NCBI RefSeq assembly: GCF_008831285.2
Contig: NC_045147.1
Span: 17,586,854-17,650,853, forward strand
Origin: Nymphaea colorata
Taxonomy: Eukaryota; Streptophyta; Magnoliopsida; Nymphaeales; Nymphaeaceae
Direction: 5' to 3'
Length of the DNA stretch: 64,000 bases
Part shown: in pieces, positions 24,201 to 33,200 of the stretch
Layout of the letters: each line of letters starts with the position of its first letter
Numbering within the stretch: the stretch's first letter is position 1
Position numbers and translations under genes: made by a program
Notes under the pieces: model-generated
What the model saw: the letters and a program-made list of their open reading frames with translations, nothing else
Databases searched by the model: none
Told to the model about the DNA's origin: nothing

Positions 24201-27200
24201 TTTGTTTATTTAGAAGGAAAAAAAGGCAAAACCTAGGGGAAAACATTGTTTTCATCAATATGGCTCGCTCTCTCTCTCTCTCTCTCTACACGTGGACATA
24301 ATGACAAATTTCAGAACTTCCCTCTTCTCATCTACAACTTAACTCACCCCAATCCCCCACTCCCTCCTCCTCCAACACAAATGACTAGTTGGTCAACAAT
24401 TCGTTGTAATCCAGCTTTTAAGACTTAGCGTAAAAAATAAAGAGTTTGAATGATTCAGAGCATAATAAGAGGTTCAAGTAATTGTAAGTGAAGATGACCA
24501 GCTTCCACCACAATTAGAAACATTTCTCCAATCAAGATGTACCATAAGTGATATCTTTCAAAAACCTCAGAAGTTGTTGTCTATAAAAGTTTCAAGTTAA
24601 AAATAACAATAGCAGTTAAGCACAACTAAAATGCTTGGAAAGTAAATAATTACAACTTAGTAAATGGACATATTGTAGAATATAGGATTAATCACAAGGA
24701 CTTGACATGCTACAAAAAACATGTTATTGAGAACAAAAACAGGAGAAGTATAGTAACATTGAAAAGTACAACAGAAATTTGCACCAATGCAAAGAAATAC
24801 CTTGACTATAGGAGGTGAATCTAGTGGAGTGCCATCTGTGCCTCGGCACAGAATACTTGCTAGATCAAAACGGAAACCATCCACATGATATTCATTCACC
24901 CTTTAATTAAGAGAACAAGAGGAGCATTACATCAATGAATGACCCTCTAAATGTGGGTTCATGAATTAAAACCTAACAATTACAAAGAACAGGAAAGAAG
25001 ACCCAATAAATATTGGTATATGAATTACAGACATGAACATGCTGTGATACAGAATGAAAAACATAACCAAATCTTAAAATTGGATCTAGTTAGATTTTGG
25101 TACTTGTAAATGGATCAAGATCCGCAATCCATCCCTTTCTCTACATAAAGGGACATTGGTTCATTTTGTAAGGGCAGTTAATCAGTTGAAAGAAATGAAA
25201 TGCAAGTCAAGTTTTTGTTAGTTTTCTTCTGTTCTTCTTGTTCGCTTAATCTTTGCTTGAGTTTTAGTTAGTTTTAGTTTAGTTTTAGTCTAGTTGTGAA
25301 TGCAGTTGGATTAAGATCGGTTAATCTTGATCTTTCTTGCATCATGCTGTTACATAAATACATAGGTAAAGAACTGCACGTGTACATCATGCATGCTGCA
25401 AGTATGAAGAATTGAAGAACTCCAAGTGTGCATCTGTTTGCATGATTCCATATATTTAACATTCTTAATTTAAGTTAGCAAAACACACATATAATCTCGG
25501 ATTCTAAACTATAAAAGCTTGACCAGAAACTTTGAAATGTTGTATTTGACATCATCATATGCTCATGTAAACTTGAAAATTAAAGTGGACTATTATAATT
25601 AACAACACAACTGTGCATATTATATATCACATGGTTATTTTTATCGCATGATATAGGCCGTATAAGTTTGAAAAACCTATACGATATGCCTAAAATACAC
25701 GATACGCCTATGTATTGTAGGTGTATCCCATGTATCGCGAACAATACTGGAGACACGCTCCCTATTACATAATACGAGGACACGGTAAAAAAGAGGCTCA
25801 AGGTGCTTTTTTTTTTTAAACAGTCTCTCCATTTCGCTTTCTAAAAATCTCTAAGAGTTGTCAGTAGGGGAGGTTTTGCTAGTTTCTAGAAAACTAGATC
25901 ATATGTTGGTGAGGACATTCCACTTGAAAGCACTGAAACAATTTAACAAAGAAAATGAGGATGAACATGAAGATGATGATGATTATTGTTGATTGACGAT
26001 AATCATGATATTTGGCATTTAGTAGTGAACAATTATATGTCGCGAACTTGGGATATAATCTAAAACATTTTAGTTTAAACTTGTGTTTTGAATCTATGAT
26101 TTCTCATTTTTGAATGTGTCGTTGACTAAGTCACATGGGTACTTCAGTAAAGTCCACGTACCCGTGTCGCCGTACCCATACTCAAGATGGGTACTTTGAC
26201 ACTTGGGTACCTATAGATCAAAACTGCTTAATTTTACTTTGATTTAATTTCTTCCACCTTACTTTGTATTATATTCCTTAGATGTGAAAATTCGATTGAT
26301 GTTCATATTTGACTAGGGGGTTGCTTGATTGTCCATATGTTTAAAGTTTTTCATAGGTTTCTTAAACACACTGCTGCAAGTTCCGTTGATAACTTGATAT
26401 ATATTTTCTATGTTATTTATTTGTTTATGTTGATGTATATTCTTAATTTTGATACATATTTTTCTAAGTATTTCTTATTGTTTATATATATATATATATA
26501 TATATATATATATATATGGCCGTACCCCCGCACCCAAGTTTTTTGAAAATGGTCAGTACCCGCACCGGCACCGACACCGGCACCCATACCCGTACCTATG
26601 TGACATAGGTCGTTGATATATTATGCCTTATAAATGATGAATCATCAACGTTCTTTATGTGTAATGAGTTTTTTATAGAATACATTTTTCCATATTTTTT
26701 CTGCTTTTTTTATTTTTTTAATTAAAAATTTAATTTTACGACATGTTATATTACAATTACGATACATTATGATATGGCGTACGGGTTGGCCAGACCGATA
26801 TGCGTTACAATATGCCTTTTATACTTTTGATATAAAATGCTTTAAGAATGCAAAGCATAAAAAAGATCAAGAACATGAGAGAATATGAAACAAAAGGAAT
26901 ATGATTTGGGCACAAAAGCAATGAAATACTGAACATCTGGCAATTGTATGCACCTCAGCATTTAGAAGGGCTTAAGCATGTCAAATGGTGAGCCTTTGTT
27001 TCCACTTTTTTAGGACTAGCTACTGTCAAGTTTGTATGCATTTATAAGAGTTTTAATTATAACCAGCACAAGTACCAACAAAGACAACAAGCTGCTAAAC
27101 AGACAACCCTAAAGATGCTGGCAAGGCATAAATCACGGTGCCATATGGACACTTATAAAATGCACAAAATGAAGACAAATCATTGATAAAGTCATGCATA

Positions 27201-30200: not shown

Positions 30201-33200
30201 GGGTACGGGTACGGACCATTTTTAAAAAACTTGGGTGTGGGGGTACGGCCGTACACACACATGCACATACATATATAAAAGTTAAAATGAAGAAAAAAGA
30301 GGGAAGTGGGACATTAAAATGAGGGTTTCGAAAATTTTAACGTTAAAATGGTTTAAAAAGTTAAAATGTAAAAATCGTTAACATTAAAATTGGACAAATT
30401 TGGACTCAGTCAACATTGATCGAGTCTGAAAAAGGTCAAAAATGACCTTGGGTGCGTTGACAGCACCCGGTACAGTCAACGCAGTACCTTGCCGTACCCG
30501 TACCCGTGCCATGCGAGTACTCCTCCTTAGGAGGAGTACCCGTGTGACAGAGAAAGAAACAAAAGACAAATACTGAACAAAAGAGAAGTACATAACAACA
30601 AATATGCAATAAAATATCTACACATATTCTGGTGAATTGGTTATGAACCCGAAAAAATTATTATGATACATGTTTAAGAAAATAAAAGGAAAACATAAAA
30701 AGTAAATAAAAATAAAAAATATTTAAAAACTGTAAATCAAGCTAGTTCAGATTGGCTAATTATCTATCTCACATGGGTGTGGGTGTCAGTACAGGTATGG
30801 TAAACATATGTGGATATATATAACAAGCTATGTCACATAGGTACGGGTGCGGGTGCCGGTACGGGTACCGGTACGAATCATTTTCCAAAAACTTGGGTGT
30901 GGGGGTACGGCCGTATACACACACATGTATATATATATATATATATATATATATATATATATATATATCAAAAAAATTACAAACAAAATGGCATATTCAT
31001 AAATCATTAAATCATGATCCAAAATTTGTAAATACTAAGAATTTCAAGACAAAAAATCTGTCCTTTGGGAGTTCCAAGGGGCAAAAAGGCGAGGAACGAG
31101 AGGGGCAAGGTGGGGACAGGTGAGAGGATGAAAAAAGCAAGAGGGGTGAAAGGGGCGAGAGGGCAAGGGACGAGAGGGGCGAGGCAAGAGGGCAAAGGCA
31201 TCGTGCGAGAGAGAGGGAAAAAATGGTTTTTTAAAACGTGCAATGGACGATTTTGGACTCGGTCAACTTTGACCGAGTCTGAAAATAGTCGGATTCGACC
31301 TCGGGTACTTTGACCGTACCCGACACAGTCAACGCCGCACCCAGGCAGTACCCATACCGGTGTCGTACCGGTACAGTACTGGTACTGCTCCTTTGGAGCA
31401 GTACCCGTGTTACATAGATAACAAGTGAATGAAACCAGCCCCATTTTCGGACTGTTTTTTCCATGTCTCCAATGCTCCCTAGGATCCACCAATTCCACCG
31501 CAAGAAGGATGACATAGGAACAAAGAAAGAGAAAAAAGGGAGAGGGGAAAGAAAAAGTAGGGTAAGAGAGTGAATATCAAACCCTATATATATATAGCAT
31601 GCCGCACCTGCATCGAGGAAAAAAAAAGCAGAAGAGGATGGGTGAGGAGGAAGGAGACAGAGAGGTGAAGAGAACATACCTGCCAGCAGAATAATGCAAA
31701 ACTATCTTAACTATTCTTTTACTAAAATAAGAAACAGTTTTCTCTTTACTTTTAACTTTTTCATACACTATATAAGTATTATACACACACACACAAACAC
31801 ATATATATACATACATAAATACATATATACATGCAAATACATACATACATGCATATATATAGACACACACACATGTATGTATGTATGTATGTAAACAGTT
31901 GTCATGGGCATGCGAGGGATCCCCTAGATGAATAAGCTACACTCATGAGATGCACCTTGAACATTCCAAACATGCTGCAATAGAAGTGACTATGGCAGAT
32001 GATTTTTAGGAAAGTATGTACATGACCCTATTTTCCATACCATCAATACTTTTATAAAGTAAGCTGGATGTTTAGAAGTGTCTGACCTTCATTTCTCCTG
32101 GGTATGTTATATTTTCCTACAAAAATTTCAACTTCTTGTTCTAGACTAAAGATCACACATGCATAAAATAATCACACTGAAGAGTATGGAGCAGGAGATC
32201 AGACACCCCTGTAATTTGTCTTCCCATATTTCCAGATTCAAATAGAAGAGCAATTAAGAATTTGATCAACTTAAACAAGAATAGTGGCAAGAACAATCTA
32301 GTTTATTAAGATAACCATCAGATATGTGCATGACCTCAGGCATTCCATAACATTATATATGAAAATATTGGAGTATCAAGTTCACCTTATTATCTATGCC
32401 ACGAAATGAAGTTGTGTAAGGGTGCTCATCACCAGCTTCATTTGTATGATTATAAACAACATCCAGAATAACCTGCAGTAATGGCATGTGCTATATATCA
32501 TCAGAAAGAATTCAACAAGTACATGATCTTTGAAACAGCTCTGCTGTTATTAAAATACCTCAATCCCAGCATTATGCAAGGCCTTGACCATTTTCTTGAA
32601 CTCAAGTGCTGCAGCAAAAGGGCCTCCACCAGCACTAGCATATCGGCTCATTGGGGAGAAAAAATTCATAGTGGAATAGCCCCATGAATTTATCTTTCAG
32701 ATATGAATTCAAAGCACATCAGTGACATCATTAGCTTTTAATATGACTATCTTCACTTTCTCATAGGCATGAAAGGGGAAACACAAACATAACATATGTT
32801 TCCTTTGACAATATCATCATAAAAAAAACAGTTGTGTCTGAGCTTGGATTCATTAACCAAAACATTCCAAGAGAAAACCTTATTAATATCTTATTCACTT
32901 ACTTTGTCAGTATAAAACATAGAGAACACCATGTCAAGAACAAAAGATACAGAAGCAATCAGATTACCATGTGATCTCTAGGATTTGGGTGCCGCTGAAA
33001 CTCAAATTCATCAAACTCAAAAACCGGTAGCAATTCCACAGCATTAACACCAAGCTCCAAAAGATGTGGAATCTGCTAATATCATTAAGCATATCACGTC
33101 AAAGAAGCCAAAGAAAGATGAACAAGCTTTTATTGCAGGAAATGAAAAAAATGAAGCTGAAGTATTGAGAGTGAATTCAGTCCTAAGAATGGGATTTACA

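Follow-up and report, generated by a model that had tools for sequence, protein, structure and literature searches.

To which transposon superfamily do three short elements with inverted ends and 8-bp target-site duplications belong, and what might have moved them? The question is raised by a 64,000-nucleotide stretch of the Nymphaea colorata genome (NC_045147.1, positions 17,586,854 to 17,650,853 of the forward strand; hereafter the window), in which the elements lie at 26126..26608 (copy 1, plus strand, 483 bp), 30160..30552 (copy 2, minus strand, 393 bp) and 30828..31417 (copy 3, minus strand, 590 bp). Our analysis indicates that they are almost certainly non-autonomous members of the hAT superfamily with long, transposase-bearing relatives elsewhere in the genome, copies 2 and 3 being internal-deletion derivatives and copy 1 belonging to a subfamily of miniature inverted-repeat transposable elements (MITEs). 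MITEs of high copy number are thereby linked with a transposase family of the same genome, a connection that is often missing for such elements, and the ends, duplications and long copies can be used for annotating many repeat copies.

Three short elements with common ends and different duplications

All three copies have 17-bp inverted ends close to CTATGTCACATAGGTAC. Each is bounded by an exact 8-mer duplication, which reads GTCGTTGA for copy 1 (26118..26125 and 26609..26616), AAAGAAAC for copy 2 (30152..30159 and 30553..30560) and ATAACAAG for copy 3 (30820..30827 and 31418..31425). A preliminary description of the window had reported these positions, the inverted ends and the differing duplications, and every one of them was found again on rechecking. 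With up to three mismatches allowed, the 17-mer end matched the window nine times, against 0.10 matches expected, and nine matches were reached in 0 of 100 shuffles. The end begins with 13 bases, CTATGTCACATAG, that are self-complementary at 12 of 13 positions and so form a near-palindrome, which makes some of the nine matches overlap on the two strands. Copy 1 carries the left end CTAAGTCACATGGGTACTTCAG, which defines a subfamily of its own, and its right side, read inward from 26608, corresponds to the 3′ end of the transposase-bearing copies described below. Midway along, copy 3 carries (TA)n repeats and a purine tract rich in G. The placement of the arrays in introns, made in the preliminary description, found no confirmation in a Pfam scan of 10 open reading frames of the window, in which the single frame within 26-31 kb had no match.

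To place these ends in the genome as a whole, 407.8 Mb in 783 contigs were scanned, with the reversed pattern as a control. The 17-mer end with at most two mismatches gave 1687 + 1677 = 3364 matches on the two strands; the reversed pattern gave 25 + 19 = 44. For copy 1, the 22-bp left end (at most one mismatch) matched 122 + 130 = 252 times, and a 35-bp left end common to the long copies and copy 2 (at most three mismatches) matched 73 + 88 times; both controls gave 0 + 0. The window end of copy 2 itself (C10:17617371-17617405) is among the listed matches of the 35-bp end. Three end matches in viral contigs (L001-L003), judged from their open frames only, look like chance and were set aside.

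Long copies with the same ends encode a hAT transposase

Two loci, L032 and L033, hold long copies with the family ends. The copy in L032 (822-4711; 3890 bp) has GAGCGAAA on both flanks, an exact 8-bp duplication, and a 709-residue open frame, and the copy in L033 (1020-4557 of the reverse complement; 3538 bp) has CTTGTAGT on both flanks and frames of 211 and 558 residues. Two long blocks align between them, with identities of 93% and 96%. Pfam searches of the L032 and L033 frames identified DUF659 (E 2e-46 and 2e-39) and the hAT dimerisation domain Dimer_Tnp_hAT (PF05699; E 7e-14 and 8e-12, both over the curated cut-off). The best alignment of the L032 frame with the Hermes transposase (E 2e-4, 65 residues) includes the glutamate region of the ER-x-x-S motif; of the D, D, E residues of an RNase H-like catalytic core, the aspartates are unaligned. 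A putative BED-like finger is suggested by a Cx2C...Hx3H pattern, read from the translation; the L033 reading frame is broken by a stop, and the open frame of L032 begins inside the finger. Since copies with the same ends encode a transposase with DUF659 and the hAT dimerisation region, we assign the family to hAT. The preliminary description had suspected as much from the size of the duplication and had pointed to the value of finding copies of autonomous type, and the two long copies bear out that suspicion.

Further transposase sequence was found among 28 loci sampled around exact ends (8 + 20, the latter being numbers 9-28 of the list of ends). In three of these, L004, L012 and L014, the C-terminus of a hAT transposase lies just inside the exact end; Dimer_Tnp_hAT was detected in the L012 and L014 frames, and the piece from L004 had no match. 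Over the transposase C-terminus, L014 shares 88% DNA identity with L004 and 85% with L012, and the alignment stops exactly at the element end with L012 and 7 bp beyond it with L004. The L004 element spans C1:1673668-1677219. L012 has the order left end (at about 783-791), BED-like frame, DUF659-like stretch, dimerisation region and exact right end. To bring its flanks into agreement at 7 of 8 letters, a loss of a few bases from the left end has to be assumed, and we therefore did not count its duplication as exact. The DUF659-like stretch of L012 is 35% identical to the protein of another locus, L026, where a separate 461-residue frame (6527-7909) lies near a MITE of the family; this frame has a DUF659 match at E 1e-58 and a weak BED finger at E 0.0015, below the Pfam cut-off. 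Neither the L026 nor the L014 transposase frame matched the window at E≤1e-3.

Ends and transposase occur together at further loci

A genome-wide protein search with the L014 frame gave at least 118 transposase matches (the best 115 of 1382 candidates being scored). The list of exact ends is complete for all of contig C1 and for C2 up to 30.6 Mb, and 20 of the transposase matches lie there. In seven of these 20, a correctly oriented exact end follows 247-493 bp downstream; L004, L012 and L014 had been found through that end, so four of the seven linked matches are independent. Similarly, 100 listed 35-bp left ends (of 161) were compared with the 118 matches; seven matches have such an end on the upstream side, correctly oriented, at 2.1-2.6 kb in six cases and at 5.0 kb in one, and one of the seven belongs to the L004 element. 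A general list of hAT matches, in which 150 of 1113 candidates were scored, yielded no close pair when inspected by eye against 100 listed 17-mer ends; close pairs of end and transposase did emerge from the family-specific search with the L014 frame.

A second multicopy hAT group, with 51-59% protein identity, also came to light (for example C9:23388670-23389482 and C9:23391402-23392214). Eight of its copies score equally, at 346.9 bits with 57% identity, and share a pair of stops. The equal copies suggest a recent burst, and the stops that they have in common may mark an intron.

Relation of the window copies to the long copies

The reverse complement of copy 2 aligns with L032 and L033 at both ends, with 72% identity over the first 258-264 bp (260-270 columns) and 75% over the last 90-94 bp (115-118 columns). 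Copy 3 is 72% identical to the same long copies at one end, over 207-213 columns, and 61-64% identical at the other, over 240-258 columns. Copies 2 and 3 thus correspond to the two ends of the long copies with the middle missing, and we therefore read them as internal-deletion derivatives.

Copy 1 differs from the other two in its relation to the long copies. Its 3′-side subterminal region is 82-85% identical to L032 and L033 over 81-85 bp, and we place it in a MITE subfamily of its own, which has the ends and a single subterminal region in common with them. Among 17 sequences of this subfamily, copy 1 included, 13 are 94.5-97.9% identical to the majority sequence and four are 70-78% identical to it. 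No transposase match among the 118 has any of 100 listed copy-1-type left ends (of 252) within 6 kb of it, and the L032/L033 type is therefore not seen with the copy 1 left end. It is possible, if on balance doubtful, that copy 1 descends from a different autonomous hAT subfamily with a similar end and was at most cross-mobilised by the L032/L033 type. The mostly homogeneous left-end subfamily with its 252 genome matches, the distance of the listed left ends from the transposase matches and the existence of the second hAT group would all fit such an origin. Against it stands the likeness of the other end of copy 1 to L032 and L033; moreover, the 118 matches include part of the group with 51-59% identity, which is likewise without the copy 1 left end. 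We keep copy 1 within the same hAT family as copies 2 and 3, as a MITE subfamily.

Target-site duplications have a length of 8 bp

The flanks of the 28 loci were examined in two ways. When all partner ends up to 9 kb away were tried, 18 of the 28 loci had flanks agreeing at 7 or more of 8 letters, and 12 of those agreed at all 8. When the nearest partner within 1500 bp was instead picked blind to the flanks, 20 loci had a partner; the duplication was exact over 8 bp in 8 of the 20 and agreed at 7 or more letters in 12, and none of 380 cross-pairs reached 7. None of these 20 blind pairs was exact at lengths of 5-7 or 9-12. For a second sample, roughly one in five of the 100 listed copy-1-type left ends was taken, with the window copy excluded. 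A right end was present within the fetched stretch in 16 of 20, the duplication was exact over 8 bp in 12 of these 16 and agreed at 7 or more letters in 13, no exact duplication occurred at 6, 7, 9, 10 or 11, and none of 240 cross-pairs exceeded 6 of 8. Exactness at length 8 only, in both samples, upholds the view that the window copies belong to a small transposon family with 8-bp duplications.

The pooled exact duplications (12 from each sample, 3 from the window and 2 from the long copies) comprise 29 8-mers, all different. They lean toward nTnnnnAn: position 2 is T in 17 of the 29 and position 7 is A in 16 of them, these being raw counts from an AT-rich genome. The target preference given for Hermes in the available excerpt of its description is 5′-nTnnnnAn-3′ (PMC10368747).

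The length of the duplication also bears on the idea that the copies are MITEs of a Mutator-like (MULE) family. MULEs produce duplications of 8-11 bp, usually 9 bp. That TA and CA tracts adjoin the subterminal region here would suit such an origin, as would the report, in the excerpt at hand, that the most abundant MITEs of pineapple are Mutator-like and tied to (TA)n (PMC8449440). However, the (TA)n of the pineapple elements, as described there, flanks the element and that of the window copies is internal; no exact 9- or 10-bp duplication was found in the 16 + 20 sampled pairs; and the transposase that goes with these ends is of hAT type, the MULE family model itself not having been searched. 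We consider a Mutator origin very improbable and rejected it on the duplication length and the type of transposase. Segmental or tandem copying of a single window insertion, which the 275-bp spacing, common orientation and 72-85% likeness at the ends of copies 2 and 3 might suggest, can be dismissed almost entirely, given that the three exact duplications differ, as do the lengths and middles of the copies, that no two of the 29 pooled duplications are the same, and that no long shared flank occurs among the 20 largest direct repeat families of window positions 25500-32000. Independent insertion, which the preliminary description had deduced from the window duplications, is thereby strengthened.

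Subterminal repeats

We also assessed the sequences just inside the ends. With both strands counted, the left 250 bp contain 9 GGTAC motifs in L032 and 8 in L033, against 0.4 in letter shuffles, and the right 130 bp contain 3 in each, against 0.2; inside the long copies only one or two occur. CGG is enriched on the left of the long copies (13 and 16 against 5.5), and its counts on the right (4 and 3 against 2.4 and 2.0) are not significant. ACCC is weakly enriched, with 3-5 occurrences per long-copy end against 0.9-1.5 in shuffles (P 0.01-0.06). In the window copies, GGTAC repeats are present at both ends, and the GGTACGGGTGC-type array is densest at one end, on the left of copies 2 and 3 and on the right of copy 1; the other end of copies 2 and 3 has a GGTACTCC...GGAG(GAG/CAG)TACC-like sequence.

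By analogy with other hAT elements, GGTAC is our best candidate for a subterminal repeat bound by the transposase. The N-terminal finger of the Hermes transposase binds short subterminal repeats, and the enzyme cuts at the tips (PMC10368747, excerpt); for Herves, Ac, Tol2 and Tag1, transposase binding of short subterminal repeats is likewise described in the available part of PMC3143072. Some BED proteins derived from hAT elements prefer CGG or CGC, according to the portion of PMC8097297 at hand. Because the GGTAC arrays are GC-rich and the genome around them is rich in AT, they are conspicuous, and the family is well suited to testing how subterminal repeats are read by hAT transposases.

A TA/CA microsatellite of variable length lies just inside the 3′-side GGTAC/GGCCGTAC region in copies 1 and 3, L012, L032 and L033, at a similar place even though element lengths differ greatly.

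A model for the family and its limits

These observations can be combined into a general model. Long members of 3.5-3.9 kb would encode a transposase with a BED-like finger, DUF659 and the hAT dimerisation region. This protein may bind the subterminal GGTAC repeats and the 17-bp ends, excise the element and reinsert it elsewhere with an 8-bp stagger, and filling-in of the stagger would yield the 8-bp duplications. Copies 2 and 3 would have arisen by internal deletion of a long form related to L032 and L033, and the copy 1 subfamily would have retained the ends and one subterminal region only. All of the short copies would be predicted to move only with transposase supplied in trans.

Several observations weigh against this picture or narrow it. 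On C1 and C2, an exact end is missing from the 2 kb downstream of 13 of the 20 transposase matches, and three more of the listed left ends, though no farther than 6 kb from a transposase match, are placed or oriented in a way unfit for one element. At the ends, the identity of copies 2 and 3 to L032 and L033 is no higher than 61-75%, so that their direct parent is taken to be a relative of these two, and the left half of copy 1 matches the long copies in the 17-bp end only. The N-terminal frame of L033 has no Pfam zf-BED match at E≤0.1, and L032 and L033, as judged from their sequences, are candidate rather than demonstrated intact or active elements. Finally, 10 of the 28 exact-end loci have no duplicated flank at 7 or more of 8 letters; three of these carry transposase sequence and seven are unexplained.

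Other features of the window

A fourth, diverged and composite copy lies at about 29120..29687; sequences resembling the family end, each with 4 mismatches, occur in it at 29120, 29214 and 29687. Its flanks agree at 5 of 8 letters only, and parts of it are 71-77% like copies 1-3 over 89-133 aligned columns. An isolated end-like fragment beginning CTATCTCACATGGGTGTGGGTG (30764..30810, plus strand, 4 mismatches to the end) is perhaps a degraded copy. Two tandem duplications lie nearby, one of a 152-bp unit with 98% identity (27945-28248) and one of a 32-bp unit that is exact (28830-28893). Farther on, the minus strand contains an exon of queuine tRNA-ribosyltransferase (PF01702; 51599-51979) and an open PPR-DYW frame of 627 residues (56170-58050), coding content in keeping with a plant.

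Comparison with known systems

Searches of the literature with the end strings returned no named family among the matches listed, and Repbase and Dfam were not compared; Nymphaea is absent from the available part of the main text of a MITE survey of 207 genomes (PMC12550479). The sequence CTATGTCACATGGACTCTTC at window position 29214, in the composite copy, resembles the tobacco small RNA AGCTATGTTGCTCGGACTCTC over the roughly 18 bp that can be compared; the latter is listed as nta-miR390c, without a transposon link in the passage concerned (PMC3237444). The likeness is at most a lead and may be due to chance or convergence.

The pineapple Ac-mMITEs resemble the present family as abundant plant MITEs associated with TA microsatellites. 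They differ from it, in the excerpted account, in being Mutator-like, in having 9/10-bp duplications and in having their TA tracts outside the element (PMC8449440), and we set them aside as a false lead.

For Tag1 of Arabidopsis, the subterminal motifs R-TGACCC and L-AAACCC are given in the part of PMC3143072 at hand. Like Tag1 as described there, this family has subterminal motifs that differ between the two ends, and ACCC is among its enriched motifs, if weakly. In contrast, the terminal stretches of L032 and L033 contain no TGACCC and a single AAACCC, in L032, the comparison being one of motifs.

A MITE of the Solanaceae has ends CTATGTTGCTCGGACTC. An unlikely speculation is that these elements represent a hAT lineage with its own recognition code, made up of the quasi-palindromic tip CTATGTSACATAG and GGTAC arrays and read by a BED-type finger; the same end type would then occur in distant angiosperms, as in the CTATGTTGCTCGGACTC sequence of tobacco, so that the code might date to early flowering plants.

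The closest overall agreement is with the hAT superfamily (Ac/Ds, Hermes, Tag1). In common with its members, the family has 8-bp duplications (which in raw counts lean toward nTnnnnAn), ends that are short and imperfect, short subterminal repeats in asymmetric arrays, and a transposase with DUF659 and a C-terminal dimerisation region, the C-terminus being Hermes-like. The usual hAT ends are CAGGG/TAGGG; unlike these, the ends of this family are CTATGTCACAT/CGGGTAC, the first 13 bp form a near-palindrome and the candidate subterminal motif is GGTAC. The superfamily features that give a clear answer point to hAT, and it is the end sequence that is unusual, the remainder being ordinary for a hAT family.

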